Positions 9,413 through 36,262 of a stretch of 64,000 bases of DNA are shown piece by piece. Position 1 is the stretch's first letter; the number at the start of each line of letters is the position of its first letter. Origin of the DNA: Leucosporidium creatinivorum (taxonomy: Eukaryota > Basidiomycota > Microbotryomycetes > Leucosporidiales > Leucosporidiaceae); the NCBI GenBank assembly GCA_001600635.1, contig BCKL01000015.1:1-64000 (forward strand), read 5' to 3'. A program made the position numbers and the translations under genes. Below the pieces are notes generated by a model. That model was not told the DNA's origin and did not search any database. It saw only the letters and a list, made by a program, of their open reading frames with translations.

Positions 9413-10978
9413 AAATACATCACTATACAACAAGACTACTGCAACTGATCCGAGCGCGACGACGCTTAAAAATAGGGAGGTGGGGAAAAGCGAAGGGTGG
9501 GTTCGTTCGGTGAAGAGGCGAAGAGAGAAAGAGGGGGAGGGGAATCCAGGTGGTAGGGCTCCGGGGATTGAAGGTGAAGTCTTTGAATTGAGGGGTGCTG
9601 TGAGCGTCCACACGCATGCGGTCTTGCGAGCGAGGAGGGAGGGAGGTTCGGCGATGAAGGAGGAGGGTCCGCGAGGAGTAGGAAGGGGATGGATCCAGTG
9701 CGATGCGCCTTGAGGTCTAAACAAAAGCAGCGTCAGCGTTCTGTACTCCATCAGCTGTCAGCACACGCAAGAGACGAGCAGCCATGCCCTCGGGACGTTC
9801 CCCAGCCTCCCTCCTCAACCGCTCGAACGCCGAATCATAGAGCTTGCCAGCGCATTCCCCAGCTCGACGACCCGCTGCAGCACGAAGATCACAGATATTG
9901 TGTCGCCGGAGCTGACTCTCGATCATACGAACTCCAGGGATGTAGCTAGCGCTCACTGCCACTCGCTGAGCAGCATCGTAGCCGAGCCGTCCCTTCTCAT
10001 CTGCCCAGGCTACGAAAGCCTCACGGGTCTCGAGAGCATCCTTCAGCTCGTAGTAAAAGCTTCGTAGATCAGTGAGTGAGAGCCCCCGAAGCCAAGAGTG
10101 GAAAGCAGCACCCTCTTCCGCCGCCCGCCCGAGCACTCCCGATCGCCGAATCAACTCCCAAAAGCCCGAGCAGAGAGACTTGACGAGCTGCACCATATCC
10201 TTCAGATACTTGGTGAGCGTAGGACGGTCAGCCTGGTCCACTCCAATGCCCAAGACCTCCAGCAGATGGTCGACAGCGCGCTCGGCGGCCTGCTCCTTTG
10301 CACCATCGGCCGACTTGCAACCTCGAGAGCTATGAAACACGCGAGGGAGATAGGTGTGGAAGGGAGAGCCTGCAGAGAATGTGATAGTCAGCTCAGCGTG
10401 ATAGAACTTGACTGCTCGAGTGGGAAGGAGAGCGATGAGGAATCCGGCGGGTCGAAGCAAAAATCGGCGAAAGGTCAGCGCCGGGCTTGCTACTTCGCTA
10501 CGGAAAGCGGAAGCTCACGAGAACAAGCTTTGTGGTAGATGACCCTGTAGCTGATCTTGATGCTGTTGTCCTTGTCGACGAGGCGTTTGAGGTAATCTTG
10601 CGAGCGAGAGTAGGGCTTCGAGTCGCGCGCCGAGGTGCGAGAGTTGCGAGTGGGTGCCATTCTGTAGTCGAACTTGGGGTTGCGAGTTCGAGGGAGGTAG
10701 TCGAGGCTCTCAATGAGTGTGAGGATGGAAGACAAGAGAGGTGGCGAGCGAGAGGGCTCTTCACTCGTCGTTCGTCTGAGTTCAACGGCTCGCTTGCTCT
10801 CGGAGCATTCAGAGCGCTCACGAAGGCAGGTGGCTGGCTCGATCGCAAGGGAAATTCGTCTGATGAGACGGGTACAGAGAGAGTCGGTGCTGCTTGAAAG
10901 TAGCAGCAGGCGGCTGAAGAGGGCTTGCAAGCGGAGGCGACCAACATGCTCGGCGATGGCTTCGGCAGCGCTGTCGGG
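9413..10978 (-). repeat. Inverted segmental duplication, copy A
   Basis: This segment matches 34690-36262 in the opposite orientation. The match starts in a shared GACAGCGCTG...GCCATCGCCGAGCAT block upstream, runs through the whole orphan gene and ends just past a shared downstream block containing GCGTCGTCGCGCTCGGATCA. Identity is very high over the 5' leader, exon 1, the intron and the first part of exon 2, then falls towards the 3' end and is patchy downstream, where copy B also carries insertions. Confidence 0.92.
9717..10660 (-). CDS. Orphan two-exon gene, copy A (paralogue of 35011-35954)
   Basis: Exon 1 is 10519-10660 (ATG, MAPTRNSRTSARDS...), the intron is 10370-10518 (149 nt, GTGAGC...CTGCAG) and exon 2 is 9717-10369 (TAG stop), giving 264 residues. 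Reading through the intron hits a stop, so splicing is needed. The product is mostly helical in composition, with a basic Ser/Arg-rich N-terminus, no signal peptide and no membrane segment. I recognise no domain. It differs from copy B at 11 residues, all in exon 2 and mainly in its last third. The frame stays open upstream of the ATG in both copies, so an earlier start or upstream exon cannot be excluded; the ATG was chosen because it is the first shared in-frame methionine. Two near-identical intact copies make a functional gene more likely than a chance ORF. Confidence 0.75.
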
Positions 10979-11050
10979 CTCGATCTCTACGCCGCAGGCT
11001 CAAAGGGTACACTAGATCGAACAAAATGCTGCAATACATTGACCTCGACT

Positions 11051-14000
11051 CTACTCGTCCGAAAGCCCATCCACAATCTTCTCCACCAGCGCCCGAATGT
11101 CATCAGCCCTCTTTGCCGAGACGTCAAGAACCTGCGAAGCGCCTCGGAGCTGGTGAGCGAATCGTCCTCCTCTCCTATGCCCACTCGTGAACTCACCTCC
11201 TGATGACTGGCTACTTCCTCCTCCTTCACCCCCGTCTCCGACTCGCTCAAGGGCTCCTTCTCTCCACGCTCCTCTGCCTGGAAAGCAGCCTCGGCGCTGC
11301 GGTAGGGAGCGTTGACCACGATGTTGGTGACGAGGGAGAGGACGAGGACGCGTACGCCGGCGTGGCGGGCGGCGATGACTTCGGGTACAGTGCTGTTGAA
11401 GGTGAGGATTGAGGAAGTCGGGAGGAGCGAGGGACAGTGAGAGGAGGGAGAAGAAGGGCGGAAGAAGGCGAGAAGGAAGAACATCAGTGAGAGAAGCTCG
11501 GCACGGCTCGAGCAAGCGAGCTCACCTCATGCCGACGACATCAGCGCCCGCAGCTCGGAGGAAACGCTGCTCGGCCTTGGTCTCGTAAGTCGGTCCAGCG
11601 ACCCTGCGATGTGAAAAGATCAGCCATGAGCTCAGTCCACGATCGAGTTTTGTAGCGAAATACTCACCAAGCGTAGACCCCCTCCTTAAGCGTTCCTTTC
11701 TTGAAGCCGAGCTCCTTGGCAGCGCGGAAGGCGGCGAGTCGGAGGTCAAAGTCGTAGGCTGGTCGAGTAGGGAGGAGCTTCCGATCAGACTGTGACTCCT
11801 CCCGAGCGAACGACCGCCACTCACCATCAGACATGGGAGGGAAACGAGGGCCGAGGGTATCGCGGTTGCGGCCGATCAGAGGGTTCATGGATGTCTGTTC
11901 CAGATGGGAAGAGGTCAGCTCGGCGCCCGCACTTCTTGCGAAGTACTCAAGCTCACCAAGCTAGGCAGCGAGATGTGATCCTGCAGCGCAATGATCGTGC
12001 CGACCTCTCCTTGCGGGTCGAGTCCTCCAGCAGCGTTGGTGATGATGGCGACCGAGATGCCGAGGAGCTTCATGATGCGGATGGGGTACTGTTTCGAGAA
12101 GGTGGATGAGCTCATGCGAAGACAGGGAGGCGAGAAGGACGAACGGCAACCTGCTCGAGAGCGAATCCTTCGTAGGCGTGGAACCTGTGGACGATGCAGG
12201 GTGATCAGTCGATGGCCTTCGAGTTAGGGATTCTGGTACAATTGTCGCTAGCGGGGTTCGGGTCGACAAGGTAGTGAGGTCGCCCAAGCGAAAGCTCGCC
12301 CGAGCTGACTTCGCGACGGCGCTGAGCGAGCTTGCGAAACAAAATGCCTCAAAGAGTGAACCGGGGCCTCAGAGGTACGCGACCGAACGAGCGCAGCGCC
12401 GTACAAGCCATGCTCAGTGAGGACCGCTGGTCCTGACGCAAGCTCGGCGTGGAACTGCTCTTCTGGTGAGCGCGGTCCTGGCTTTCAGCTCAACCCAAGC
12501 AGGCCCAGCTGCAGAGGTGTGCACCATCAAGCACGAGAAGCTTCTGGGCTATGGCTCAGCCACTCCAAGCGCGAAGACGAGCTGGCCGCCGCTCGGCGAA
12601 ACCTCGGCGATGCCGGTCCGCTACACCGTGTAGCACAGGGTGATGAGGGTGATGAGGAGGCGGAACTAAGGTCAAGGAACAACTGAGGCGCAGCCCAGCC
12701 ACCCCCTGCGCAAAGGCAGCCTCTCACCGCCCACCGAGCAGCTCCTTCTGAGCAGGGAGATAGCGGAAGCGGGCTTGCAGCGGCGACGCGTAGTGTTGAC
12801 GCAGCTGTATGGTCGAGTACAGCTACAGCGTACACAGTCGTCGGATGCGGACCACCTCGGCATCCACTCTACGGCAGCTGCCATGAGCGCCGAAGACAGC
12901 CCAGCCCGTCTCCTTCGACCAGGAAGAGCAAGCAAGAGCTCGGCGCTCAGCGGAGCCGAGCAAGACCACGTAGCACGTAGCATATGTTGCAGAGCGTTGC
13001 AACCTTCCAGCAAGCTGGCTCGACTTGGTCTAAGCAAACATCTGAAGCGACGGCGAGCCAGCTTCCGGCCTCTGTTGTGCCACATGCGACGCGCTGATTG
13101 AGGCTACAAAGGAGAATCCGGTCTATCCATCTTAGCGTCCGCTAGTCATGCTCATCGAGCACGGCGGGGTCGAACGCAAAGGTCGGCGCTCGGCGATCCC
13201 TCTCCAACACTCCCTCGTTAAGCCGAGCCTGCACAGAGAACTTGTCTGCAGGCAAAAGCGCTCAAAGATCACCGAGCTACAACTCAGCGACCTTCGAGCG
13301 CAGAGCGTAGGCAGGCCCCTCGAGCGAGAGCTCGGCGAAGCTGGCTCTCAGCCTATCCCGTCTCCCCACCAAGACGAGCGAGATGCAGATCTCCCCCATG
13401 CAGCTCAGGCGCCGAGCGAGCAGAGTACTTGTCCATCACCTGCACGGAGAGAAACCTCTGGCGCCCGGCTCGACCGAGGCAGTCTGAGCTCGAGAGGGCG
13501 CCGGTGAAACGACGCTCGCCGGCGATAATGCGCAAGCAGCTGGACCAGCTGGTACAGCCACACAACGCAAAGCCGAAGAGTCCCGCCGCTTCCGCTCCCC
13601 TCCCCTGCTCCACAGCTTCCTCCGACCCTCTCTCGCCTCGTCGCCCAGCTCCCGCCCTCGCATGCTGGGAAGCTCACCTGCCCAGCTGACACACCACAGG
13701 CGTGCGCTTCGATCCCAAAAATCCGAAAGCAAGAGCGGATTGATGTCCTCGTACTGTAAGGGAAGCGAGAGAGGGCTATCAGCAACGCGTCGTCCTCTCG
13801 CTCAGCCGGAGAGGGGTACAGCGCACCAGTGCTCTCCCCGAACCCTTCAATATCGGCATAGTTGACCTCTACCCGATCCTGTAGCAGTTCGGCCAGCCCT
13901 TGCAAGCCTGAACCGCAGACGATGCCGATCTGTTCAGCGAGCGCTCGTCGTCAGCTCTTTCTCATCTACCAGACTACAGAGAGAGTAACAGACACACCTT

Positions 14001-14156
14001 GGGTACCCTCAATTCTTTAGGCAGCCTCGACCTGACATCTATCAATGCTTGAGTGTAGGTTGCGGTGAGTTGGTCCAAGTGGGGCGTGGAGGAAGGGGAA
14101 GGGACTGGGTCGGCTAGACGGGGGAGAGCAGAGATATCGGCGGGCTGGGCTGTCAT
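11051..14156 (-). CDS. PNP1: Purine nucleoside phosphorylase (inosine/guanosine type)
   Basis: Reads from ATG at 14156 to TAG at 11051. Exon products in order: an N-terminal leader (MTAQPADISALPRL); GIVCGSGLQGLAE, the phosphate-binding loop; RGHQSALAFGFLGS...VVCQLGR; FHAYEGFALEQ; YPIRIMKLLG...ITNAAGGLDP; NPLIGRN...GPRFPPMSD; VAGPTYETKAE...GADVVGM; STVPEVIAARH and VTNIV. These are the family-2 trimeric PNP landmarks (HxxYEG, TNAAGG, GPTYET, MSTVPE). Known role: reversible phosphorolysis of inosine and guanosine in cytosolic purine salvage. The C-terminus carries an acidic, Glu-rich insert (about 40 residues) after the usual SLVTN core. The striking feature is the intron at 12185-13677, 1,493 nt, against 50-150 nt for the others. 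The start is divergent from the next regulator gene, with a 306-bp shared upstream region. Confidence 0.92.
12185..13677 (-). other. 1,493-nt intron of the PNP gene (possible insertion)
   Basis: Bounded by a normal donor (GTGAGC, complement of 13672-13677) and a normal acceptor (CCACAG) that join ...VVCQLGR to FHAYEGF in frame. The inside has open frames on both strands (for example complement 12672-13085 and 13148-13507) with no recognisable protein. I could not find terminal repeats or target-site duplications by eye, and no clear match to repeats R1/R2. Confidence 0.8.
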
Positions 14157-14462
14157 TGCTTTCTGTAGGCTTGTAGGTCGGTAGGTCGGAGCTGAGACGA
14201 GACGAGGCGAACGTGGTAGAAGAGAGAGAGAGGGAACAGAGCCGAGGCGGGCGAGTTGGGCTCGGCGGAGAGGGGAGAGGGGTTGTAGGGGATTGTAATG
14301 TAGCTCAAGCAGATTCAATTCGGACTAGTCTGCTGTCACCCTGCTCTTACTTCACAATACAACTCCTATTTGCTTCTCAAGGCTACATCATCGTTCTAGG
14401 CGCCCCGCGCTCTCTTCTGCCTTGTCCCGCTCTCTTCTCTCGCCTTTCAAGCTCTGCTACAA
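14157..14462. promoter_or_regulatory. Divergent promoter region, PNP / Zn2Cys6 factor 1
   Basis: The two ATGs face away from each other across 306 bp. The strand switches from GA-rich to CT-rich near 14220-14260, as is common in fungal upstream regions. Co-regulation of purine salvage with the adjacent transcription factor is possible, but nothing in the sequence shows it. Confidence 0.5.
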
Positions 14463-17400
14463 ATGTCGAATCGACACGCTCCATACAGTGTACCAGATCG
14501 ACCTACAGCTTCCACTTCTACTACTGCTATACACCATTACTCGCCTTCCAACGATTCAAACCACTCGTCCACCGCGACCAATTCAACTTCAACTCGTCCT
14601 GCTCAACTAGCTCACTCCGGTACAGACCCAGTCTTCTTGGAACCGCCTACAAAGTTACAACAGACTACAGATAAGAGCTGCGTAGTCTGTAGGGAACGAC
14701 GAGTCCGGTCAGTTCTCTCTCTCTCATCTTTCAACCTCGAACTCGAACGACCCGAAGAAACGCGTGCTGAAACCGAGGTCGACTTCGCAGATGCTCGAGG
14801 GAATGGCCGAGATGTACTAGATGTGTCAAGAGGAGGGAGGAATGTGTCTATGGAGATGGCATCACCGTCGAGACGAAAGAGACGGCAGTGGTCGATCCCA
14901 GGGTCAAGCAGTTGGAAGCCAAACTCGGTCAGTCTTCTGTACTCCTTCCTTCCGATGAGCTACAGCAGCAATAGCTAACATATCTATGACACGATAAAGC
15001 CACCCTCGAATCCCAACTCGCCTCCTCCTCGACCGGCTCCCCTCCCTTGAATCTCCCCCTCCTCTCCAACGCCGGCACTTCCACACCAGCTCTCGCTCAT
15101 TCGATCCAAGCAGCTTTCCCTCCATTATCGGACTCTGAATCGGCTACTCTGTTGCACTATCTCGTCGGGCAGGCGGTCGGGCAGCAGAGGTTGGGAGAGA
15201 CGGAGAGCTTGGATTGGAGGTTGGCCAGGCCGAGGATGGGGGAACTGTTGACGATGCACTTGCTGGATGGTGTGTACACGTTGCTTTCTCAGTCCCAATC
15301 TCCGCCCTCGGCCCTCTCTCGCCTCTTACTCTCGAGCCAAAGCTAACCTCTCGGCGCTCTTCCCAACAGCCGCCCAGCAAGCCTGCTGTGCGCGCCTCCC
15401 CTCCCTCAAACCCCTAATGGCCCGCATCCCCTACCTCCAATCCGCCCTGCCGCACTCCTCACTCTCCCCCTCCAACCAAGCCGCCATCTGCATCCTCTCC
15501 GCCCTCGGCGCTCGCTCGTCTTCCCATTCTGCCGTTCTCGGGCTTGCGATCCCTGGATTGGCGGATGGGACGGCGGATCCGAAGGTGTATTTGACGGTCG
15601 GGAGTAGGAGGGAGAAGGCTTGTAGGGCGTTGTATGAACGAGCGGCCGAGGTTTGTTGGTTGGGGGGTGTTTTGAGTGAGAGCTCAACAGAGGGCTTGGA
15701 GACGCTCGTCGGGTTGGCACAGGTCATGATCTGTGAGTTCTTGTCCCTTAGTCGACTCTTTGGAGGCGGATCGCTGACTCTCAACCATCCAATTTCCTTT
15801 CTTCCTCCTCCCGTCTCCGCCGAACCCCCCCTCGCCTTCTCTCGCGCTGCTCACTACCCAGTCGAGGAAGTTCGACCACGGAAATCTCGCTTCTACCTCC
15901 GCAACGCCGTTGGCATGTACTCCGATATGCAGGCCGATCCGCACATCTCGCAGGAGGAGAAACTCGATTTGCGCAAGACGGTCGGGAATGCGCTTTATGT
16001 GAGTGTTGGTGGCTCTTCTTGCGTTCTCAGGAGGAGAGAGATGCATGAAGAGGCTTGAGACTGACCCTGCGACACAACACACAGCTCGACGACGCGATCC
16101 ACTCGGCCCAGCTCTCCAAACACCCTCTCATCCCGACCGAAGAGCTCCCCTCCTACTTCTCCTCCACGGGCCTCACCGTCCCCGATTTCACGCACAAGCA
16201 CCTGCACGAGCTATTGGAGGAGACGTTGATGCCGCATACGCAGATTGGGCGTGCAGGGGAAGGAGCGCCGGGGAGTGAGATGCCCGTGACGATGGAGCAG
16301 TTGGAGAAGGCGTTGGACGTTACGGGTGTCTGGGTCTGTTATCTGCAGAGGAGTTTTGCGAGGTTGACTACCGGTTTGTCTTGTGCTTGATTCCTTTCCT
16401 TCTCTCCGAGTTGGAAGAGTGAGGAGCTGATTCCTCGTCTCTTGCCCCCGTCTCGCCTCGCTCTACCTCTCCACTTCGCCCTTCTCCACCACTACAGCTC
16501 GCCGACCAGCCGCTCCTTCCATCCTCTCCTCCCTCCAAACCCTCTGGACCCAAATCGACGTCGTCCATTCCTCGGTGCAACGCCTCCAAAACTACTTTGT
16601 CAACCTCCAACACTCGGCCCAACCCCCACCACAGCACCACACCTCCAGCACACCAACCCCAAACTTCGGCCTCGGTACAGGCAACCGCGGTACGCCCGAC
16701 ACGCCTTCCAACCTACCGAAAGGAGCGGGCGATCCTTGGACTTCGGATCATTTCGTGCTCCTCGCGGTCAGGGCTGATACGAGGTTGGTGGATCTCGTGA
16801 ACTTGATTCATGGGTTCTTGCGGAGAGAGGATATTGTCGAGATTTGGGGGCAGGGGGAGAAGGGGAGCGAGAAGGAGCAATGGGAGGTGGTTGAGAGGTT
16901 GAGGGAGGAGAGTGAGATGAGGGTGAGGAAGTGCTTGAAGTTGGTTGCGTGAGTTGGTGGTTTCTGTTCTCTCTTCCTTCCTTCTTCTTCATCGTCGTGA
17001 AGTCGAGTCGCGCCGAGCCGAGCTGACCTCTGCCTTTGTCAACGTTAAACAGCTTTTACTCTCGCCTGTACCTCTCCTCCATGGACAAGCACGTCGTCCA
17101 CCACCTCACCATGCAGCTTGAGCTTCTTCCATCATGGACGACATTCGCCGTGCAGACGGTCGGTCAACCAGGAGGACCGTCGAGCGTCGAATTTGAGGTC
17201 AGCAACGAGGAGCTCGATTGGTGAGTCGTCTTGCTCGGCACACTACGCGGGATCCACACTGATGGCGTGTTCTATCACAGGCTACTTTCGGCGCTTCGAC
17301 TCGCTCTCTTCTACACCCCCAAGGCGGCGACTCGATTGAACGAGCTCATAGAGGGAAAGGCGAAACGCTCCAACTCGTCTTCGGGAACGCCTTCTCGTGA

Positions 17401-18296
17401 GCTTTGACGATCTTGCTTCCTTCAATAGCGCTGACTGACTCGCTCGTCTCCTCCCAGTCTCCCACTCTCGTGTTGCTTCTCCTCCTTCGCCCGAGTTCCC
17501 TCACGGCCCTCTCCCTGGGAACCCCTCCTTCCCCCATCTCACTGCACCGCTCGCGCAAAACGGAGACACCTCTTCCCACACTGGCAGCACTCCCAACGGT
17601 CTCACACGCGCAAGCGACGACTACTTCCCTGGGCAGGAGTCGGCGGCGGCGCCGTTGCTCGGCCTCGAGCTGGACCAGTCTCAATATCGTCTCCCACCAT
17701 CCCAGCAGCAACAGTACAAGCAACCACAAACCAGCAGCAACGACTACACAGCATACGCCGCCTCTGCACCACAACAGCAGTACTCCCTTCCCGCATCCTC
17801 CCACGCCATCCCCGAGTTCCTCGCCGCCAACCCGACTCCTCCGTCCTCCTCCATCCCCAGCGTTCCCTCTCAGCACCTCTCACTACCCGCCAACTCCCCT
17901 TCTCTTCACGCCTCGACCCCCTACTCGCCTTACCGCCCCGGCACTTCCTCTCTCCCCTCGGCTTCCTACCCCTCCCAATGGGCCTTCAACGCCTATGGCT
18001 TCCCGTCCATCTCGCCACAGTATGAGAAGCAGGATCCCTTCTCGCTGGGACAAGGGGAGATGGAGAATTGGGTTGGAGGAGGTGGGAGTTGGGCGGTCAG
18101 CGGTGGAGGAGGAGGAGGAGCGGGAGCCATGAGCGCAGGCGGTGGATGGGACGAGCAGCAGGGTCAGTCGTTTGATGATCAGGGACAAACGCAGTGGGTG
18201 CAGCAGCAGGATGTGGGAGCAGCGGGAGGAGCGAAGGAGTGGAATCAGAGGGGCAACGAGGGAACGCCGGGAGTCGATGGGCATGGGCTTTGGTGA
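14463..18296 (+). CDS. Zn(II)2Cys6 transcription factor 1
   Basis: ATG at 14463, stop TGA at 18294-18296. Exon 1 (14463-14707) ends inside the zinc cluster. After a short intron, exon 2 (from 14791) continues it, giving CVVCRERRVRC-SREWPRCTRC-VKRREEC, a complete Cys6 binuclear cluster near residue 75-105. A short coiled coil follows (VKQLEAKLATLESQLA), the usual dimerisation element, then a fungal-specific transcription-factor domain containing SLDWRLARPRMGELL. About 200 residues at the C-terminus (17.6-18.3 kb) are Gln/Pro/Ser/Gly-rich, a plausible activation region. At least eight exons are visible. It resembles its downstream neighbour in the middle domain (SLDWRLARPRM versus SVDWRLATPQM), so the two look like tandem paralogues. 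Nuclear regulator; target pathway unknown. Confidence 0.85.
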
Positions 18297-18723
18297 AGGC
18301 TTGACGAGGGCTTTGTTCGGGTTTCCCCTCTGCAGGGTGTTGTAAGTCTATTTAGCTACATATATTCCCCCTTTTTGTCTTCTCACTCGGAGCGAGCTTC
18401 AATACACGCTGAAGCCCGTTTCGCACTTTGCCTTCGAGAAGCGCCGAGAAGCGAGCTAGGGAGCTTTTCGCCGAGTTGAGCTTTCGCCGAGGTCAGCGAG
18501 CGAATCTTTAATTGGTGCAGAGGGTACGCCACGCCTGAGCTGCATTACAAGCGTGCCGGAACCCCATCGGAATCGACTCGTTTATCTCTGCCCGAATTAT
18601 CGAAGATCCTCGACTTGCCAGCCGAAATTCGGCTTTCGCTCTTCCCCCACCGACGTCGTCCCGTCTTCTTTCTCGTTGCAGCAGACCGACAGAGCGAGAG
18701 CTAAACGGAGCGACTCCATAAAG
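18297..18723. other. Intergenic region between tandem regulators
   Basis: 427 bp holding the 3' end of factor 1 and the promoter/leader of factor 2. It has several GCCGAG-rich short repeats and CT-rich stretches before the ATG, and no gene. Confidence 0.5.
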
Positions 18724-21700: not shown

Positions 21701-22325
21701 TGTGGGAGGACCGGCGACGAAGGAAGACGAGGTCACCGAGACGGAACTGAGTTGGTGAGTAGGAGTCGTTGAGTGATCGTACTCCTAGAGCTGATACTTA
21801 CACTTTTCACAGGCTCGTCGAAGCGCTGCAAATCGCTTGCTACTACACGCCCTCGGCCGAACGCCGTCTCGCTGAGCTCTCGCCCCGCTTCGTCTCACTC
21901 GAAACGCCTCCCATCCCTCTCAATCCGTTCCCCGCGGCCGTCAAGATTGGCAATTCACACGCTACCCCTCCAAGGCCCACCTCGGCGCACACCCGTAAGC
22001 TGGTACTCCCTGGCCTCGGCGAGCGTTGAGCTGACCTCGCACGCTGTTCCCAGCTCCGCCCGGCTTCTCCCTCGACTCCTACACCGAATCTCCAGCGCAA
22101 TCGCACGCCCCACCTCCCCAGCACTACTCGCACGCTCCTCCCGATCCTCAGTCCTACTACAGCACCGCGCCTCCTTCGCGCCCCTCGACGGCTCCCAACG
22201 GCTCGGGGCATACGCCTTTCCTCGACGCTGGTGCTTATGGCTGGAGTAACGGAGCACAGATTCAGCAGTTGAGCGAGGAGCAGGAGAATGGAAGTTGGGC
22301 GGCGGCGGCGAGGTATCAGATTTGA
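18724..22325 (+). CDS. Zn(II)2Cys6 transcription factor 2
   Basis: ATG at 18724 and TGA at 22323-22325. The N-terminus (about 140 residues) is very rich in Gln, Pro, His and Tyr, with CAG/CAA runs. The zinc cluster is CIRCRVRKVKC-DRQYPKCHNC-ELRNEEC, split by an intron of about 490 nt (about 19209-19696) just before the third cysteine. A short helical linker (ARIARLEARLAELE) is followed by the fungal transcription-factor domain (SVDWRLATPQMAKSL, FGLAIYTADSLNSAYARRTPLL). A His-rich patch (HSHTHSHHDSSD...HSHSH) lies in the 21.3-21.4 kb exon. The tail is Pro/Ser/Tyr-rich. It has at least ten exons and the same architecture and orientation as the upstream factor. Nuclear regulator of unknown targets. 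Confidence 0.87.
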
Positions 22326-22622
22326 GGACGGGGACTGAGGGAGAGAAATAATGTAGTAGTGCTAGCTTATGTTTTCCGGAATTTAGCTTGTTGTTGTCTT
22401 GTGTGAGCCGGTCATAAGAAAGGCCATGTACGATAGCTCGGCGTCTGCTGCTCGCTCGCTCGCTTCATTCGAAAGAGCTCGCGAGGCATGACGAACGGTA
22501 GTAAGAAAACACACATCAGTATTAAGTAAAGCAGTGAACCCCTCCCGCGTCGTCCCATCTCAGCCACCCGCTCTAGCGCCTTCCCAACTCGTCGACGCCG
22601 AGCCTCCCTCCTCTCCTCGCGC

Positions 22623-25265: not shown

Positions 25266-25499
25266 TGTGTTCGACTCAGAGAGCGATGTGGCGGGAAGCA
25301 GAGAGTTGAGGAGGGATTCCAACTCGAAGGGGATCGGAGGCGGTGCTCGAGCTCGACCCCACATCTTGGCGAAAGAGGAGGCGGGGTCGTTTTGCAGACG
25401 AGTATATGAGGAGGCAGAACGACGTGAGAGAGGGGACTGCAAGAGTAAGATGCAGAGAGCGAGTCGCTCCTTTTCTCGGCGCTCGGCGTTCAGAGGGTG
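25266..25499. other. Upstream region of the annexin gene
   Basis: Leader and promoter of the minus-strand annexin, ending where repeat R1 becomes recognisable. No gene seen. Confidence 0.4.
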
Positions 25500-27150
25500 A
25501 GGCAAGTCCGAGCCTTCGGAGGGGCGTTGCAGCTGCAGAGCAGTGTGTCCGAATCGTCAGCCATCCCAGACGACATCAGATAAAGTGTCGCAGACTCAAG
25601 CAGATAGGCTGACCCGCCCTCCTCCGCAGAAGAGGGAGAAGCTCGACTAACTCGGCTCGGCGATCGCTCTTCAGCTCGCGTCGGCTGCCTTGTGGCCGGG
25701 GAACGGCTCGATTACCCTGCCACCAGCGCTCCCAGTCATGTAAAGCTCACTACAGTGTCAGCAAAAGTTGCACTCTCACCTGCCGCCTGCAGAAGTCCGC
25801 GAGCTCGGCGAGGGCCTCGCCCTTCCGGATGCTGCAAATTCCCAGTCGAGCGTTTTGGACCAACAAGAGGTTGCCCTTGTCTACTCGCATGCCGGATCTG
25901 TTGGCTAGACCAACAGACACGACAGGCGTAGGGCGGGAGCATGAGCCTGCTAGGGCTTCGGCGATCGCGTTCGAGCGCAAGGCTTAACATGTAGGAATCA
26001 TGCGCCGTTTTCGGCAGAGTTGCATGTGAGCGAGTCGTTATCCACTTCTATCGAAGCCGGATGAGTGCCACCACTAGCTGTCCTACAGCTTGCGAAAGAA
26101 GGAGGATCTGCCGCCGAGCTGGGGCCGTAGCGCGACGCTTAACGAGGAGTGGCTCATAGAGAATCAGCTCAATGAGCACAATCCGTGTCATTCCCAGAGG
26201 TGTAGAGCTGAGGTCTGGCTCAATTAGCAGAGCCCTAGCAAAGCGAGCAGCTCCGCCGAGGACGTCGCGATGAGCTCGGTGCAGCCTCTTGCCCAAATGC
26301 TGCTTTCAACAGACATCGTGGGCGATCGCCGTTCAGCTCGCTTCAGGATCGATAGCCTCACAGCCAACACGAGCATCGCTCGTCTCGACCGAGAAGCGAG
26401 TTTACTCCGTCGCCGAAGCCGAGCCATGCCTCATCCTACTTGGCTACTTTAGTCTGCTGTATCGCACAGGAAAGGCTGGATGTTTGAGACCCGATGCGTG
26501 ATGGCTTCCCTCCAGTCAGCGGCAACGACGCCCTGGAGCGCGCCGTCGCCGAATGACACGGGGAAGCTGAAACTCGGCGCACGACAGGACGGTCGAGGGT
26601 ACCAGCTGATACCCGAGAGAGAGAGCAACATCTGCTGTTTTACCAAGCCGACACTTGAGAAGACCGCCGAGAGTAACCTATGCAAGAAGATGACGAGTGC
26701 AAGCTTCAACCAAACTCGGCGCTCGCCGTCACATGCAGAGGCTGGCGGCGATCTCAGAGCGACTTGAGGGTAGAGCAGCCACAGCACAGTAGCGCAAATC
26801 CCCCAAAAGGCGCACAGAGCCCGCCAGAGCCGCTCACTGCAGCTCCAGCGACACCCTGTCGCCTCGCGAGCGGCTCGCCTTCGCCTCGGTTTAGCTGGGC
26901 TCCGGCACCGGAGGTGGACGAAGAGGCTCCAGATACAGCTAGATGGCCACATCGCCGGAGCTGTCTAGGGGCTCATCTGAACCTTGATGGCGAGCGATGG
27001 CGGCCCCTAGAATCGTGTTGAAATTAATCCAAGCCCCCCCTGGACTATAGCGAGAGTGCCAGCAGACTTCGGTCCGCCGAAGCAAGAAGCGACGGCTCCG
27101 AACCTTCGCCGAGCAGTCGACGGAGGCTCAGATTGCCTGCAGCCCTTTGC
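25500..27150. repeat. Degenerate dispersed repeat, copy R1
   Basis: Blocks of this stretch match 47.57-48.96 kb in the same order and orientation: GCAGCTGCAGAGCAGT (25.53 / 47.60 kb), CTGCAGAAGTCCGCGAGCTC (25.79 / 47.86 kb), CAAAGCGAGC-GCTCCGCCGAGG (26.24 / 48.19 kb), GTCTCGACCGAGAAGCGAGT (26.38 / 48.35 kb), GACGGTCGAGGGTACCAGCT (26.59 / 48.51 kb) and CCCGCCAGAGCCG...GCAGCTCCAG (26.82 / 48.73 kb). The matches are separated by indels and diverged sequence. No transposase, reverse transcriptase or terminal repeat can be recognised, so the family is unknown. Frames inside (for example complement 26449-26952) lack any known domain. Confidence 0.75.
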
Positions 27151-27405
27151 AGAGCAGCAGAGGCATCTTGGTATACAGCTCGAGAGGTCTAGGTGCTTTT
27201 ATTTGCCTTCACCAGCGCCGAAACGCCCTTCGCCCGGGCAGAGGTTGGTAGGCGGCTCGCTCCTCTGCTCTTCTCAGGCTTCTGTGCTACCCTACAGACA
27301 TTTATGACGTCCTCAATGTACCCAAAAAAAAACCTCCCTCGCCCACGCCTCCAGCCGTGCACCACCCCTTCCCTTCCTCTCCCAATTCTCTCAACCCGCT
27401 CGGCG

Positions 27406-27486
<81 letters not shown>

Positions 27487-27491
27487 TTACT
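27151..27491. other. Intergenic tract containing a 77-nt poly-C run
   Basis: It holds the tail of R1, a short A-rich block and the homopolymer at 27407-27483. The long proline ORF on + and the glycine ORF on - across this tract are artefacts of the homopolymer. Confidence 0.7.
27407..27483. repeat. Poly-C (poly-G on minus) homopolymer, 77 nt
   Basis: 77 uninterrupted C residues, nine bases beyond the stop codon of the minus-strand mitochondrial-protein gene. On that gene's sense strand it is a poly-G run at the start of the 3' UTR, a strong G-quadruplex former. The true length is likely to vary or be mis-assembled. Confidence 0.9.
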
Positions 27492-28270
27492 TCAAACCCT
27501 CCCACTTCCCCCGACCTCGCCCGCCCCAGCCCCCGTACTAACCAACAGAGGGAGGACTTCCCCTTCCTTGACTGCAATCTCCTCTGCCGTGTCGGGGACG
27601 AGGTAGTCACCGCCGTAGAGCCCTAGGAGACCGACGGCGAAGAGGGAGAGGGAGAGGTAGAGGCGCGTTTTGGGGGGGAGGACTGTGGGAGTGTAGGAGA
27701 GTCAGTTTGAGCTCTTTGAGAGGGTGGAGGAGTATGGGAACAGCGAGATCTGAAGTGGCATCTGAGCTGGCCTGCGATGCGAAGCCGAGCTCGGCCTCAG
27801 TGAAAGAGCGAAAGAGACTGACCCAAGTAGGATTCCCATAGGTTCCTCTGTTTGACAGTCTTTCCCCTGGCTTTAGCGACCAAAGGAGGTTCGGCCCATG
27901 ATCCCTTGTGTAGTGATTCCCTCCAAGTGTCGTCTGAGAGAGGGAGAGCTTTCGTCAAATTTGACGAGCTGAGTGGGCTCAAATTTGACGCCTCACAAGC
28001 TTTCCCTTTGCCCTTGGGGTCTTGGGGCTGTACGAGAGTGGATGAGCCTGGAATGGTGGATGAAGGGGTAGCAGCTGAGATGGCTGCTGGATGGGAGTAT
28101 AAGGGAGAGGGAGAAGCGGATAAGGGTGCCGTGTGAGTCGTGCAGGGAGGTGGTCGAGCGGGAGCTGATGGAGCTGCTGCTGATGATGGCCGTCCTTTGC
28201 GAGCTTTTGAGGCTACAGAGTAGTATCGTAAAGTGGAAGTAGATGCTCGGCTGCTAGCAACGGATAGCAT
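27492..28270 (-). CDS. Small mitochondrial membrane protein (hypothetical)
   Basis: Two exons: about 27824-28270 (ATG at 28270) and 27492-27682 (TGA stop), joined ...NLWESYL to VLPPKTRL. Product about 210 residues. The N-terminus (MLSVASSRASTSTLRYYSVASKAR) is Arg/Ser-rich without acidic residues, a typical matrix-targeting presequence. A Pro/Ser/Ala-rich linker follows, then a conserved-looking block (LPLSDDTWRESLHKGSW and TVKQRNLWESYL), one hydrophobic segment (LYLSLSLFAVGLLGLYGG) and a short acidic-to-Gly/Val tail. I do not recognise a named family; an inner-membrane protein or assembly factor is likely. It shares a 165-bp divergent promoter with the sideroflexin gene. Confidence 0.7.
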
Positions 28271-28435
28271 CGTAGCTGTAGTCGAATATGGTCAAGTTTC
28301 AACCCGCGACTTCGCGCGCATCTTCCCACCTCTCTCTCCGCCTTTCTCGTCGCGCTTCGTTTGGCTTCTGCTCCTGCTTCTTCGAGGGTTCGGTAGATTG
28401 GTATCAGGCATAGATTAGGATCACTCGCTACAACC
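28271..28435. promoter_or_regulatory. Divergent promoter between two mitochondrial-protein genes
   Basis: Only 165 bp separate the start codons of the minus-strand small mitochondrial protein and the plus-strand sideroflexin. A CT-rich block (TCTCTCCGCCTTTCTCGTCG) lies in the middle. The short shared region suggests coordinated expression of two mitochondrial membrane proteins. Confidence 0.55.
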
Positions 28436-30629
28436 ATGGCCGCCAACGACGTCAACCACAGCGCCAACAAGAACAAGGACTTGAACACTCCGCCCGTCGA
28501 CATTAGTGAGTCAACCCGAGCTGTAGCGTGTTGAACGCGATCGGAGGATGCGCATATGGAGCAGTGGAGCTCTCGAGGGTGGATGGTGCTCTGCCGTAGC
28601 TTGGAGAGCTGTGTTCGCGCCGTGGCGAGTGGCAGAACTCGTTCACCAGCTTCAGAGGGGCGTAGAGGGTGCAGAACGACCTGATGGCTATTCGAGGGTC
28701 ACGAATGCTGTCGAGGTAGCTGTATCGCCGTTTCTGAGCGCGCCCTCCCAAGCATCGTCCAGCTCGCAGCGCCATCGCCGAAGGACCGAGCGCTGACCTT
28801 CTCCTCCTTTTCCCTTCGCTGACCTCGAACAGCTCAATCCCGCTATGACACCAAAACCTACAGTGCGTACCCATCACCTCCTTCCCCACCCCTCCCTACT
28901 AACCCCCCTCCCCTCTGATCCAACAGTCGGCCGCCTCCGTCATTTCGCCTCCATCACCTCCCCCCTCACCCTCCTCGCCTCGTCTGCCGAGTTGGTCGAG
29001 GCACAAAAGTTCTTGAAGGAGTATCAGGAGGGCGTTGGTAGGGGACGGGAGGCCTGGGGGCGGGAGGAGGAGTGTGGAGTGTGGAGGAAGAAGCAGTTGG
29101 TCGACTCGAGCTTGCACCCTGGTGCGTTCGTTCATCTGGCTGGCTGGCTGGCTGCTTTCCCTCCCTCGGCCTGAGGCCAACTACTAACCTTGGGGATCCC
29201 CTATCGCTCTTCACGCGCCGTTACACACACCACAAAACAGACACCGGCCTCCCCGTGCCCCTCCCTTTCCGCCTCTCGGCCTTTGTGCCCACCAACCTCC
29301 TCATCGTAGGCGGCATGCTCATGCCCAACCCTACACTCAAGAGCGTCATCTTTTGGCAGTGGGCGAACCAGAGTTTGAATGGTGCGTTTTGGTGTTCTCT
29401 GGGAAAGAGGGAGAGAGGGTGAGGAGGGAGAGAGCTGACGCAGGTGGGACTGGGGTCGAACAGTGTGCGTCAATTATTCGAATGCGAATAAGAGTATCGA
29501 GATGAGTAATGGGGAGATTGCTGGTGGTGAGTCCTTGGGTTCCTTCTCTCTCGGTTTCGCCGAAGTGAGAAGCTCGACTGACCCTTCCTGCCTACTTCCC
29601 TTCCGCTCCCTCTCCTCTTGTCTTCATCTTCATCTCCATCGAAAAAACCACACTCGCTCTACCACCCCAACAGCCTACGTCGCCGCCACCGTAGCCTCAT
29701 GCTCCATCGCCGTGGGCCTGTCGACCCTCGTCCCCCGCCTGCGCGGTCTGCAGCCTACCACCAAGGCTTTGTTGTCCAAGTTCATCCCTTTCGCTTCCGT
29801 GGCGAGTGCGGGAGTGGTCAATATTGGCTTGATGAGGTGGAAGGAGATTAGGGATGGTGAGTTGCGAGGGAGGGCGGGAGGGAGGGAGGAGAGCGGCAGA
29901 GGCTGACGATCCCTCTTGTCTCCCTCTCTCGCTCCGCATCTTTCAACTTGATTCGAAACAGGCATCTCGGTCTACCCTCCCGCGGATGAGAAGACGGGCC
30001 GCCTTAACACCCAGGAGCTGGGCAAGTCGTCCACTGCCGGAGGGTACGCCATTGGCCAAACAGCCGCAAGTCGGGTGTTTACCAACATGTGCGTATCTCT
30101 CTCTCTCTCTCTTCTGCCTTCTTTGCTTTGAGCGAGCAAGGAATGAAAAAAAAGCTGAGCCTTCCCCAACCCCCGCCGCGCCGAACTCGCAACGCAGCCC
30201 GACGTTGATCCTCCCGCCGGTGATTATTACTCTCCTCGAGAGGAGGGGGGCGTTCAAGGGACCTAATGGGGCGAGGTTGAACACTGCGACCAACCTTGGT
30301 GAGTCGTTGCTTTCCTTCTCTGAGGAGAGGAGCTGTGAGAGAGTGTTCGGCGTTGAGCTGACCTCTCGCTTTCTTCCCTCTTCTTTCCCTTTCCTTCTCC
30401 CCCTCCCTACCCTGTCACCTTATCAACACCTACCTTTTTTCTCCGCTATTCCTCTCCCGCCCGCCCCGCCCCGGTTACCACTCTAGGCCTCATCGGCGTC
30501 TCGCTGTTGGCCTTCCTGCCCCCCGCCATCGCCGTGTATCCTCAACGCGGGTCGATTGACCCCAAGAAGTTGGAGGTGAGGTTTAGGGAGTTGGAGTACC
30601 AGAGGGTCGAGTTTAATAAGGGGTTGTAG
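28436..30629 (+). CDS. FSF1: Sideroflexin (mitochondrial amino-acid carrier, Fsf1-like)
   Basis: ATG at 28436 (MAANDVNHSANKNKDLN), TAG at 30627-30629. Spliced product about 330 residues, the usual sideroflexin length. Family marks in order: RYDTKTYVGRLRHFASITSP; the HPDTG motif (HPDTGLPVPLPFRLSAFVP) followed by a hydrophobic VPTNLLIVGGMLMP; FWQWANQSLNVCVNYSNANK; a membrane segment AYVAATVASCSIAVGLSTL; FIPFASVASAGVVNIGLMR; GISVYPPADEKTG; and the C-terminal LLAFLPPAIAVYPQRGSID. Known role: inner-membrane transport of serine and related amino acids for mitochondrial one-carbon metabolism. Eight or more exons with 60-200 nt introns. No break seen. Confidence 0.94.
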
Positions 30630-30887
30630 TTGCTGCTCTATTAGAGGGAGTGGAAGGAATAGAAGGGGGAGCGCCGAGCTTGGACAGGGGAAAGAGAGAG
30701 ATGTAGGGGAGCAGTGGAGGCGAGCTTGGAGGGTTCTCAGAGTTACAGACTTCTCTATAGTCCTACATACGGCTCTTCCGACATTCAAAGATTGTTCCCC
30801 GCAGTGTTGCCCCCCTCCTCTTCTGCCAGCTCGAGCAGAGCGTCACCTTTCCTTCCTCCTTGTCGTCTCGTCTCGTCTCCAACAGCG

Positions 30888-33800
30888 ATGGCGCCGTTCC
30901 CAACTCGACGACCTTCACAACAATCTTCACTATTACCTACAGCACACACTCCCGCTTACCCTCCCGCACCTTATCCCACCACTACTCCTACATCTCAGCA
31001 CAACTCACCCTCTCCCTCCCCTTCGGGCTCACCTCGTCGTTCCCCTTCCCCTGCTCCCATTTCAACCCTCAGTCCTACACAGCTGTTTGGAGAGGTACAG
31101 ACTCCCACTGCTGGGGTGTCAGGCGGACTGGGCAGGACTGCTAAGAGTACAGAAACCGTCAGAAGGTTGCTCGAGGTGAGTGATGGCGCGTGCGGGGGGA
31201 ACGAACAAACGCGAGTAGTAGGGGGAGGGATGGGGTACAGCAGATATGGGGCTGAATGAGGAGCTGTAGGAATGTGTCCAGTCGCCTGCAGAGGCGCCCT
31301 GCTCGAGTACAACTCTCAGCGGACCGAGGGGCAGCAGCTCCACTCGCATCTCGCCGTCTCAGCTCTCTCTTTTCAGCAGAGGGGAGGGTCGGGCTGCTGA
31401 ATCGGGTGTAGTGGATGCTTGTCCTGCAGCTCTTGAGGCTACATGCTCCGTCTTGCTCCTCGTTCAGCGCTGGCTGGACGACGTAGAGGACGCTTCAATT
31501 CGCCGTCACGAGGCTAGGAGCTCTGCTGTTCGCTGCGGGGCTGTATCTAGCTCGGGGGTGCAACAGTTAAACAGAGCTGCTAGGGCTACGACCGCCCCTG
31601 TAGCTCTTCACAGCGGAGATTCCGCTCGAGCCACCGTTGTCGATGCGCACAGCTCGCTTTCTCGGCTGGATCAACAGACGTACGAGCTGTAGTCTGTTGC
31701 AGTTGATGTTCGGCGATGTTGATGTACCGGATCCAAAAGGCTTGAGCTGAACCCCCCTCTCCCATCACACAGGACAACCACCTCAAGTGAGCTCTGTCCT
31801 CGCTGCTTTCGCTCTCGCGGCGCCCGAGGCCGCCAAGCGATGACCGACCTGCTAACTCTTTTCCCTGCGCTCTGCACTTGCGCGCCTATTCACAGCCGAC
31901 ACATCTTTTTCAACGAGGATGTGAGCTCTCTGCGTTCCCTCGTGCTGTAGGCCGTCCTCGCTGACGCTCAAATTCAAATCACACGCAGGGCTTCCACAAC
32001 CACGCCTCGCATCACTGTGCGTTGTAGTGATGTAGTTGGCACGAGCAAGGCTGATCATCCTCTCTATTGTAGTACTCGCCTCCTACGCACTCGGCGCTGG
32101 ACCAACGTTGCTCAAAGAGATCTACGAGCTTCACTCCAAGCAGCAGGCCGTACGTTCTCCGAGCTCATCTGGCCTCGATTTGGAGTAATGCTGACATTCC
32201 ACACTGCCAACAGAAACCCATGCTACCCCTCCAACCCGCCACCATCAACGAGAGCAACTGGCTCGAGTTTCTCGGCGAGGAGCAGTGAGCTCGGCGTTCG
32301 CCTCTTTCCCCTCCAACTCACCAACTGACCTACTGCCCACCATCAGATACTACCCCAACTACCTCGCCTTCTTTCACCGCTTGATCTCTGCACCACCTAT
32401 CGCGCCGAGCCCTTACGCCGGACAGAAGACGAGCGTCGTGCCCGTCGTCGAGAAGTACTTGCTCGGCGGACAGGGAGATATGCTCACTCGGTAAGCAGTC
32501 AAGATCTACTCGCTTCCTGATTCCCGCTGACCTCGCCCTCACCGAACAGTGCCGTCTCGGGCGCAATTCACGGCCTCATCAACATCGGCTTTGGAATCGA
32601 GTTCGGCGTCTACGCCATCGTGGCTGAAGGCCTCGCCCAAAGCGCCGTCACCGACGCTCGTCTCACCTCCCTCTTCCCCTCCGCCTGGCCACCCATGCCT
32701 CCCCGCCCCTCGCCATTCCAGTCGACCCTCTCGTCCGCCTTCTCCTCGTTCAAATTCGGCGGCGGCATGGGCAAACGAGTCGCTTCTTCCGTGCCCTTCC
32801 TCTCCGGCCTTCCTATCGCTTCGCCTACCGACTCGTTTGCCAACACGGCCGCTTCCCTCCCCCGCGAGCGTCGGATTCCCCGCGCCGGCCTCGGGGGGTT
32901 CACCATCCTCGATCGCATCCTCCATGATCCTTACCTCGCTGCAGGGAGAGCAGGCAGGATGGACGATTTCCCCAAGTTGGATAGAGTGCTCGAGAGGGAG
33001 TCGAGGAGGATTGTGAAATGGTGTGAGGAGTGGAGGTTTGAGGGGGATGACAAGGCGAGGGGGGAGTGGGATGAGGATGGCGAGAGGGAGAGGGCCAAGA
33101 GTGTGGGAGAGGGGTTTGCGCCCAAGAGCCCCAGTTGGGAGGAGTGCGTCGAGAAGTGCGAGGAACTGATTTGGATGGCGACGGTGAGTTTTTCGCCTTC
33201 GACTCGAGCTGAAGGGGAGAGTCTGAGCTGACAGTGAACGGAGACAGGTCATCTACGCCGCTTCAAGTCGACCGGGATACGAGAATGTCAAGCTCGACTT
33301 TTTCCTGTGCGATTGGAGTCTCGAGCTGAACCTTTCGCCGAGCTGTTAGCTGACCCTCCCTCGCTCCACAGCATGCACGGCCTCACTTCCGTCCTCTTCC
33401 TTCCTTCCATCCTCCAAGTCATCTCCCCTCATCTTCGCCCATACGTCCTCTACTCGCACTTCCGCGTCATGGTCGGCTACTGGATCTCACGAGGCCGGTG
33501 AGTCGCTGCTCGGCGTTTACTCTCCGCTTCTCGTCGCTGATCTCTGCTCGCTCCGTCCCAACAGACCCGACCTCCACATCTGCGACACTCTCATGTCCGC
33601 TACCTCGACTCCCCTCCCTCCCAACCTCACCCCCGCCACCTCTTCCGCCATCTCGACCGCCCTCGCCCAGCTCGCCGAGAAGCAGACCTCGGATGAGCCC
33701 GAATCGCCGAAAACGCCTCAGGCCAGTAGCAATGGGAGGTTGAGGGATCTTAGCGAGGAGAGCGAGAGGGACGAGCCCGAGAACCCGGTCGAGAACGCTT

Positions 33801-34557
33801 GGCCGAGGATTCTCGCGAGTGCGGTCGACCATCCTGATGATCATTTCGCCAAGGTGTGTTCCGAGCTCAGGAGGGAAGACGACTCGAGCTGACGCTCCTG
33901 TGCTGCCTCCATAGGTCATTCGCTCCCTCGCCTTCGCCGCCGCGCACTTTGGGCACTCGCCGAAAGGCATCTACCACTCGGCGCTGCCTGGGACCGAGGT
34001 CATGGATGGTACCATCTTCGTCCGAGGTGCGTTATCCCCTTACTCTTCTCCACCTCGGCTCCGCTGATCATCACTCTCGCTCCACAGCCGCCGGCCTCAC
34101 CTTCCGCTCGCTCGGCTGGGCACACGAGGGCGAAACTCCCGGCGCGTGGGATCGCTCAGTACTCGGCTACGACGAGGCATGGGAGTCGGAGACCCGCCTT
34201 CCCGGCTTCGAGGACAAGGGCAAAGGCCGAGCTCGCAGCGGCACCGAGACGGAGGAGACGTACCTCAATTCCCAGCACCCCGGCTCGCGCGCTCGTTCGC
34301 CGCCCATTATCGTCAGCCCGAGTCCTATCAACCCGACGAATGTGGCGGGGGCGGGATGGTACCAGAGCTCGACGCCCGAGAGGGTGCGCTCGCCCGAGAG
34401 TGGGATGGCCGAGACGAGGATTGGGTTTGGCGGTGGTGGTGGTGGGGATGTCGAGCAGGGCGAGTCGAGGTATGGGGAGTTGAGGGAGAGGGAGGATGAG
34501 GATGAGAGGACCAGGAGGGAGAAGGAGGATGATGATGAGCGCGAGTTGATGGCTTGA
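30888..34557 (+). CDS. Questin-oxidase-like protein (DUF4243 family)
   Basis: Start chosen at 30888 (MAPFPTRRPSQQSS); an in-frame ATG exists at 30714. Stop at 34555-34557. A Pro/Ser-rich N-terminus is followed by a 600-nt intron (31176-31772), a 14-nt exon (31773-31786) and short exons that join to DNHLNRHIFFNEDG and FHNHASHHVLASYALGAGP, then NWLEFLGEEQYYPNYLAFF, AVSGAIHGLINIGFGIEFG and, near the C-terminus, AVDHPDDHFAKVIRSLAFA. The conserved histidines (FHNHxxHH, IHGL, HPDDH) and the order match the questin oxidase family, which includes Baeyer-Villiger-type enzymes such as AflY/GedK of fungal polyketide pathways. No polyketide synthase lies nearby, so a secondary-metabolite role is not supported here. 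The C-terminus is an added charged Gly/Glu/Arg-rich tail of about 80 residues. Confidence 0.85.
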
Positions 34558-34689
34558 GCTGTTACATTCGAGATAGAAACCGTTGGATCTAGTGCTTGTG
34601 CTTGTGCTTTGAATACGAACTGCGCGGGGCGGATAGCTGGAATAGCGATAGCTGCTTGTCTCCCCTTCCTTCCGCTGAGCTGTGAAGAG

Positions 34690-36262
34690 CGAGGTCGACA
34701 GCGCTGGAGCCATCGCCGAGCATCTTCGAGCCGCCTCGGCCTTCGAGCCATCTTTGCTTGGTCTCTACTCTTCGACAGCGGGCCCGAGCTTCTCTGTAGC
34801 CGTCCCATCAGGCGAACTCACCTTGCGATCGAGCCAGCAGCCGGCCTTCGTGCGCGCTCTGAATGCTCCGAGAGCAAGCGAGCCGTTGAACTCAGACGAA
34901 CGACGAGTGAAGAGCCCTCTCGCTCGCCACCTCTCTTGTCTTCCTTCCTCACACTCATTCGGAGCCTCGAATCCCTCCCTCGCACTCGCAACCCCAAGTT
35001 CGACTACAGAATGGCACCCACTCGCAACTCTCGCACCTCGGCGCGCGACTCGAAGCCCTACTCTCGCTCGCAAGATTACCTCAAACGCCTCGTCGACAAG
35101 GACAACAGCATCAAGATCAGCTACAGGGTCATCTACCACAAAGCTTGTTCTCGTGAGCTTCCGCTTTCCGTAGCGAAGTAGCAAGCCCGGCGCTGACCTT
35201 TCGCCGATTTTTGCTTCGACCCGCCGGATTCCTCATCGCTCTCCTTCCCACTCGAGCAGTCAAGTTCTATCACGCTGAGCTGACTATCAAATTCTCTGCA
35301 GGCTCTCCCTTCCACACCTATCTCCCTCGCGTGTTTCATAGCTCTCGAGGTTGCAAGTCGGCCGATGGTGCAAAGGAGCAGGCCGCCGAGCGCGCTGTCG
35401 ACCATCTGCTGGAGGTCTTGGGCATTGGAGTGGAGCAGGCTGACCGTCCCACGCTCACCAAGTATCTGAAGGATATGGTGCAGCTCGTCAAGTCTCTCTG
35501 CTCGGGGTTCTGGGAGCTGGTTCGGCGATCGGGAGTGCTCGGGCGGGCGGCGGAAGAGGGTGCTGCTTTCCACTCTTGGCTTCGGGGGCTCTCACTCACT
35601 GATCTACGAAGCTTTTACTACGAGCTGAAGGATGCTCTCGAGACCCGTGAGGCTTTCGTAGCCTGGGCAGATGAGAAGGGACGGCTCGGCTACGATGCTG
35701 CTCAGCGAGTGGCAGTGAGCGCTAGCTACATTACGGGTGTTCACATGATCGAGAGTCAGCTCCGCCGACACAAGATCTGTGATCTCCGTGGCGCAGTGGG
35801 TCGCCGAGCTGGAGAATGCGCTCGCAAGCTCTACGATTCGGCGTTCGAGCGATTGAGGAGGGAGGCTGGGGAACGTCCCGAGGGCATGGCTGCTCGTCTC
35901 TTGCGTGTGCTGACAGCTGATGGAGTACCGAACGCTGACGCTGCTCTTGCTTAGACCTCAAGATGCATCACTGTGGATCCTTCCCCTTTCTCCTCCTCGG
36001 CGACCCTCCTCCCTCATCGCCGAGCCTTTCTTCCTCCCTCTTCCCTCCTCACTCGCAAGACCTCAAGCTCACGTTTTCAAAAGGGCGGTCTCTCAAGCCT
36101 ACCACCCCATACTCAAGCTTGGATCTCCATCTCCCCGTCTCCCTCTCTCTCCTCATCACTCCGCCGCACCCACCCCTTCGCCTTTCTCCACCTCCCTCCT
36201 TTATAAGCGTCGTCGCGCTCGGATCATTTACAGTGATATTGTTGTATAGTGATGGATTTGAT
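34690..36262 (+). repeat. Inverted segmental duplication, copy B
   Basis: Reverse-complement partner of 9413-10978. It contains the whole orphan gene plus about 320 bp of upstream and 300 bp of downstream similarity. The downstream part has extra CT-rich sequence relative to copy A. The facing orientation puts a block of about 23.7 kb between the two copies. Confidence 0.92.
35011..35954 (+). CDS. Orphan two-exon gene, copy B (paralogue of 9717-10660)
   Basis: Exon 1 35011-35152, intron 35153-35301, exon 2 35302-35954 (TAG), 264 residues. Exon 1 encodes exactly the same 47 residues as copy A, and the 149-nt intron differs from copy A at one base. Exon 2 differs at 11 of about 217 residues, concentrated after residue ~175. 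Visible features: basic N-terminus, a central helical region with SLTDLRSFYYELKDALETR and EAFVAWADEKGRLGYDAAQ, and an Arg-rich C-terminal third. No signal peptide, membrane segment or known domain. It lies between the questin-oxidase-like gene and the damaged MFS gene and reads outward from the 23.7-kb block, mirroring copy A. Confidence 0.75.

Follow-up and report, generated by a model that had tools for sequence, protein, structure and literature searches.

Inverted duplicate genes with a mosaic of identical and divergent tracts near a contig end of Leucosporidium creatinivorum

The closest described system is the flip/flop region of Saccharomyces chromosome XIV, in which 4.2-kb inverted repeats lie 24 kb apart, are homogenised by conversion and have undergone recurrent inversion (PMC9731477). 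In the same account, about 53,800 mitoses and 950 meioses yielded no flip (PMC9731477). Inverted-repeat gene pairs are also described in Caenorhabditis; here the paralogs stay similar within a species, and conversion has been proposed (PMC1803023). In C. elegans, paralogs that face the same way are reported to be likelier partners for conversion, which also becomes rarer as their distance grows from 1 to 8 kb (PMC3966223, citing Semple and Wolfe); this trend speaks against conversion taking place easily between copies that are inverted and 24 kb apart. Finally, mating-type switching in Hansenula/Ogataea polymorpha works by inversion of a stretch of chromosome that lies between two related loci (PMC4238957).

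With these systems in mind, an inverted gene pair of the basidiomycete Leucosporidium creatinivorum is considered here. The assembly comprises 27.7 Mb in 63 contigs. The window, that is, the whole stretch of 64,000 nucleotides analysed, forms the left-hand end of contig C15 (702,072 bp); C2, C3 and similar labels denote contigs of the same assembly. The genome searches score the best candidates only, so that the absences reported from them are not absolute.

The inverted copies, their gene and the block between them

The earlier note had described two inverted copies, each with a two-exon gene read outward, around a block of about 23.7 kb, and both the layout and the length are borne out (Table 1). 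The copies, A on the left and B on the right, share 1402 of 1589 columns in a global alignment (88.2%), with intact predicted genes on both sides. Self-comparison of the window detected the arms independently (9634-10894 and 34777-36037, 95% over 1261 nt), together with an extra outer inverted piece of 61 nt (89%). A search of the whole genome with the DNA of copy B returned copy A (9412-10982, 89%) and copy B itself; no third DNA copy was found among the best candidates scored. An origin as a transposable element was rejected, since just two copies and one paralog of 30% identity were found among the best candidates scored, all on the same contig. A search for tRNAs and known RNAs at the repeat gave 0 matches in the window. 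The word GCCATCGCCGAGC, shared near the repeat ends, was set aside because it contains a word that is frequent across the whole 254 kb of C15. On C15 1-254000, TCGGCGAT and CGCCGAGC occur at about 8 times the first-order expectation, and the longer word ATCGCCGAGC near its Markov expectation.

Table 1. Positions of the copies, the predicted genes, the tracts and the block features in the window
Feature	Position	Strand	Basis or remark
Copy A, left arm of the inverted repeat	9412..10982	-	self-comparison, whole-genome DNA search, global alignment
Gene A exon 2, including stop (predicted)	9717..10369	-	
Gene A intron, 149 bp	10370..10518	-	1 difference from gene B
Gene A exon 1 (predicted)	10519..10660	-	
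Block between the copies, 23,707 bp	10983..34689	.	holds one F2 family member
F2 family member inside the block	25502..26875	.	direct relative at 47.4-48.8 kb, inverted relative at 65.2-67.0 kb
Sideroflexin gene	28797..30626	+	three ORFs match PF03820; Pfam, best 7e-24
Questin_oxidase-like gene, part	32521..33228	+	copy B side of the block; Pfam 4e-18
Right copy (B) of the inverted repeat	34690..36262	+	self-comparison, whole-genome DNA search, global alignment
91-bp identical tract, upstream of the gene	34854..34944	+	= A 10817-10727
Near-identical tract, 306 + 144 bp, one base differing	34984..35434	+	= A 10687-10237; putative gene-conversion tract
Gene B exon 1 (predicted)	35011..35152	+	
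Gene B intron, 149 bp	35153..35301	+	
Gene B exon 2, including stop (predicted)	35302..35954	+	
211-bp identical tract	35521..35731	+	= A 10150-9940; putative gene-conversion tract
Putatively unconverted island, codons 191-231	35732..35852	+	6 non-synonymous differences, besides the synonymous ones given in the text

The two predicted genes are both open and encode 264 amino acids, and their products differ at 11 residues. Gene A is the mirror image of gene B (10660 to 9717); both are read outward, with their 5′ ends on the side of the block. The twin gene has no Pfam family at E<=1, and its product resembles no PDB sequence at E<=10; the AlphaFold model of exon 2 has a pLDDT of 43 and is unusable. 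By eye, the sequence surrounding the intron was likened to a dsRNA-binding domain; this likeness has no Pfam support and was dropped. Pattern searches gave 15 matches among viral contigs (viral_contigs) and 77 among prokaryotic ones (genome_contigs), with 0 confirmed relatives in either set. One further locus, C15:123078-123614 (-), was returned by a protein search with exon 2. It is 30% identical to the twin gene, carries an intron in the same codon phase, as judged by eye, and contains a TGA ahead of the end of the homologous stretch. A member of the duplicate family F4 lies about 0.6 kb away from this paralog.

The gene content of the block had been read as PNP, two transcription factors, annexin, mitochondrial genes and a questin-oxidase-like gene, a list that stands in part. 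The Questin_oxidase and sideroflexin matches are clear, sideroflexin being a mitochondrial carrier family. The matches to PNP (Pfam 0.00095) and annexin (0.0019 and 3.9e-5 in two scans) are below the Pfam cut-offs. The two transcription factors have no Pfam match; their basis is a motif in the ORF at 18460-19290, seen by eye, which we take to be a partial Zn2Cys6-like motif. No mating-type gene was found among the ORFs scanned with Pfam or read by eye, in an annotation that is incomplete. Genes in the window are spliced and their introns are short, and a degenerate telomere-like repeat occupies positions 1-61, features indicative of a fungus. The F2 family represented in the block has three members (25502-26875, 47406-49109 and C15:65180-67283), with patchy identity and a weak coding signal. 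A run of 77 C at 27407-27483 is possibly an assembly or sequencing oddity, and the nearby stretch 27951-28015 has short near-identical matches on C2 (93% over 65 bp), C28 (100% over 47 bp) and C6 (98% over 45 bp).

Mosaic divergence between the copies

Substitutions between A and B are distributed very unevenly. They occupy 42 of 158 sites in the outer 5′ flank and 77 of 292 in the 3′ flank, as against 1 of 149 in the intron (Fisher P 8e-16). With outer flanks that differ at 26-27% of sites, a very recent duplication is ruled out. Within the coding sequence, the synonymous differences per sites are 0/65 for codons 1-91, 4/20.2 for 92-121, 0/54 for 122-190, 11/30.5 for 191-231 and 0/26.3 for 232-264, the limits of these five segments having been set after the differences were seen. 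A test that is free of such limits points the same way, as the densest 41-codon window of synonymous differences was equalled in 0 of 20,000 permutations; for the largest gap in the coding sequence without synonymous differences, P is 0.018. Perfect tracts of 91, 306, 144, 211 and 76 bp are interspersed with divergent stretches, and 0 of 2,000 shuffles produced a run as long as the longest of them (shuffled maxima 99 and 87 in two sets of shuffles). Exon 1, the intron and the first part of exon 2 are covered by the tract at 34984-35434, as is the sequence just 5′ of the start codon. In the islands that separate the identical tracts, 26 coding differences are called.

Selection on the protein does not account for an intron and silent sites that are near-identical right beside an island with 36% silent divergence. 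The putatively unconverted islands and the outer flanks hold old divergence, 20-36% at silent sites. The simplest account of the mosaic would be an old duplication that was later overwritten by several short tracts of gene conversion. Homogenisation of the arms by conversion is thus indicated by mosaic silent divergence in a single assembly, and such a signature implies that copies A and B pair and exchange.

Taken together, the locus is best explained by old inverted duplicates that undergo ectopic recombination, mostly as non-crossover gene conversion and possibly, in a minority of cases, as crossovers that flip the block; we would give this reading a probability of roughly three in four. 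According to it, an old duplicate gene pair would lie inverted, 23.7 kb apart, on one chromosome arm. In several short tracts, non-crossover conversion would have replaced exon 1 and the intron as well as promoter-proximal sequence and portions of exon 2. A minority of the same events might end as crossovers, by which the block would be flipped and the 5′ ends of the two genes exchanged.

Other duplicate pairs and alternative explanations

In a comparison of C15 1-254,000 with itself (aligned length at least 150, more than 300 bp apart), 28 chained pairs were obtained, of which 16 are inverted and 12 direct. The inverted share is 14/19 above 200 bits, 10/12 above 400 bits and 8/9 above 800 bits (three from one family); pairs within one family are not independent, and a single family makes up 14 of the 28. 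Grouping by overlapping intervals yields nine families of dispersed duplicates. Their best pair is inverted in seven (one-sided P 0.09), or in 8 of 10 families when the C3 pair described below is included (P=0.055, not significant). A hand-made grouping, under which the best pair was inverted in 9 of 11 families (P 0.033), gave way to the overlapping-interval rule. The excess of inverted best pairs is suggestive only.

A stretch of 50 kb of contig C3, chosen blind to its content, also contained one inverted pair. It lies at C3:321618-322847 and 325505-326739, with 97% identity over 1236 bp and a separation of 2.7 kb; a glutamate dehydrogenase-like gene is copied in part, and Ns occur at matching positions in both copies. 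Another inverted pair, C15:205088-206440 and 208924-210273, is 94% identical over 1356 bp, is 2.5 kb apart and includes an identical run of 493 bp; no other copy of it was found among the best candidates of a genome search. Segments of 0.4-4.4 kb within C3:330001-340000 have their six best matches elsewhere on C3 (79-93%, four inverted and two direct), and the off-contig matches of this query are short, on C45 and C46.

Genome searches with the twin gene, F2, the C3 pair, F4, F8, F7, the F5/F6/F10 region and F3 gave strong matches on the same contig only; the set of queries left out family F9 (183.8/188.1 kb). Off-contig matches in these searches are short, for example 50 bp on C16 (F7) and 57-76 bp on C4 and C22 (F3). 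Counter-examples to such local confinement are a 532-bp match between C3 and C15 (79.5%) and matches of other parts of the window to C23, C12, C4, C3, C2, C28 and others over about 50 to 470 bp. One duplicate family is F-box-like at E 0.0011, below the cut-off. When N is counted as a mismatch, the longest identical run beats all 2,000 shuffles in 6 of 7 profiled pairs, and that of the direct F4 pair is equalled by 6 of the 2,000; when N-N columns are counted as identical, all seven exceed all shuffles. Apart from the twin pair, coding constraint alone could give part of this patchiness, conversion and exon selection being unseparated in these pairs.

The arrangement at the left end of C15 had been held to resemble a flip substrate more than a random duplication. 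That contrast loses its force, for the arrangement is not singular: mirrored local pairs recur in the sampled part of the genome, and a dedicated flip substrate need not be invoked where ordinary duplication and subsequent gene conversion suffice.

Two alternatives concern the origin of the pair and are compatible with later conversion. According to the first, an adjacent tandem pair was separated by one ordinary inversion with a breakpoint between the copies, which carried one copy 24 kb off and reversed it; the layout is then the scar of this single event and no recurrently flipping substrate. Such an inversion yields exactly the layout of A and B, dispersed inverted pairs are frequent on C15 as seen in the highest score class above, and in Dothideomycetes, changes of gene order are attributed mainly to inversions within chromosomes (PMC3516569). 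However, the mosaic silent divergence is left unexplained, and orientation is near even across all 28 chained pairs; this origin may be entertained tentatively, at rather less than even odds. According to the second, the duplicate was born inverted in one step, when a short segment was copied in reverse to a distant site during break repair or by template switching in replication. Newborn duplicates of C. elegans are described as often adjacent and inverted (PMC2728529), and the ends of duplicates can be arbitrary, as in the partial glutamate dehydrogenase-like copy on C3, whereas the twin pair is a copy of a whole gene. A birth of this kind is possible too, with odds that likewise fall short of even.

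It could also be imagined that the assembler merged short reads from two copies that do diverge, the identical tracts being a shared consensus. Short-read assemblies tend to collapse such repeats (PMC9731477), and the F4 pair and the C3 pair each have Ns at places that correspond between their two copies, which suggests that the assembler probably failed to phase some repeat differences. Copies A and B, however, contain 0 N, their outer flanks diverge as described, and the 26 coding differences called between the tracts show that the copies were distinguished there. The tracts are therefore taken as real, an effect of assembly is quite unlikely, and the two copies are not one locus assembled twice, a possibility the earlier note had named as a refutation. 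A programmed or selected switch, in which a flip changes an expression state near the telomere as in the inversion-based mating-type switching of yeasts, has in its favour the telomere-like repeat and a block size comparable to the Saccharomyces example, but is most improbable. The recognised block genes are metabolic or mitochondrial (in the incomplete annotation), the possible regulators look Zn2Cys6-like and do not resemble the homeodomain genes of mating-type loci, the outer 3′ ends stay where they are in a crossover, and other inverted pairs lie far from the C15 telomere.

Inversion of the block and comparison with known systems

Under the preferred reading of old inverted duplicates that recombine, the earlier proposal that recombination between the copies would flip the block is supported in part: the signature of past recombination between A and B is strong, and inverted perfect tracts of 306, 211 and 144 bp are a plausible substrate, although a single orientation is seen in the one assembly. 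Its corollary, that a flip swaps which copy is nearer the telomere, has to be given up, because a crossover inside the copies exchanges the block-side promoter and 5′ parts and keeps the outer 3′ ends in place; the copies would be recombined, not swapped. A flip of the block would be plausible on an evolutionary timescale, in view of the Saccharomyces region, which inverts recurrently and yet gave no flip in the mitoses and meioses cited above (PMC9731477).

Taken alone, the A/B pair is a clean example of inverted paralogs in concerted evolution, with conversion tracts recognisable at intron and silent sites. It may be speculated further that young duplicates in this fungus generally stay on one chromosome and form mirrored pairs, with spacings of a few to tens of kb, that are homogenised by conversion; the dense set of such twins would be a distributed substrate for recombination, which would repeatedly flip small blocks and drive the shuffling of gene order within chromosomes. 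We regard this generalisation as rather unlikely. The frequency of mirrored pairs rests on about 304 kb sampled of 27.7 Mb. If the pattern were genome-wide and flips occurred, they would supply a cause, based on homology, for the frequent inversions within fungal chromosomes. For Dothideomycetes, the exact mechanism of such inversions is called unknown in the cited account, which links breakpoints to simple repeats (PMC3516569).

As in recurrently inverting regions, two inverted homologous arms surround a block of other genes. In Ogataea polymorpha, too, a block lies between two related loci, and there it is invertible (PMC4238957); unlike in that yeast, no mating-type gene was recognised in the Leucosporidium block, whose annotation is incomplete, and there is no evidence of regulation. 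Nothing supports a regulated or telomere-related switch. The Caenorhabditis pairs resemble A and B as inverted paralogous genes that stay similar within a species, with conversion proposed (PMC1803023), and differ from them in their short spacers (126 and 414 bp) and in resting on a three-species comparison (PMC1803023). The likeness to the Saccharomyces flip/flop region comprises a gene-bearing block of about 24 kb, inverted repeats on either side of it that contain entire genes and their promoters, the homogenisation of the copies, and repeat genes whose function was likewise long obscure (PMC9731477). The Saccharomyces repeats are 4.2 kb long, almost identical and near a centromere, and contain a tRNA gene besides two gene pairs (PMC9731477); the Leucosporidium repeat, with 1.57 kb, 88-89% identity, one gene and a place near a telomere, is shorter and less alike. 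Both orientations are documented in Saccharomyces (PMC9731477), whereas the Leucosporidium pair is known from one assembly. The layout of A and B belongs to a known kind, that of homogenised inverted repeats, and its less expected aspect is the frequency of mirrored local pairs in the sampled part of the genome.
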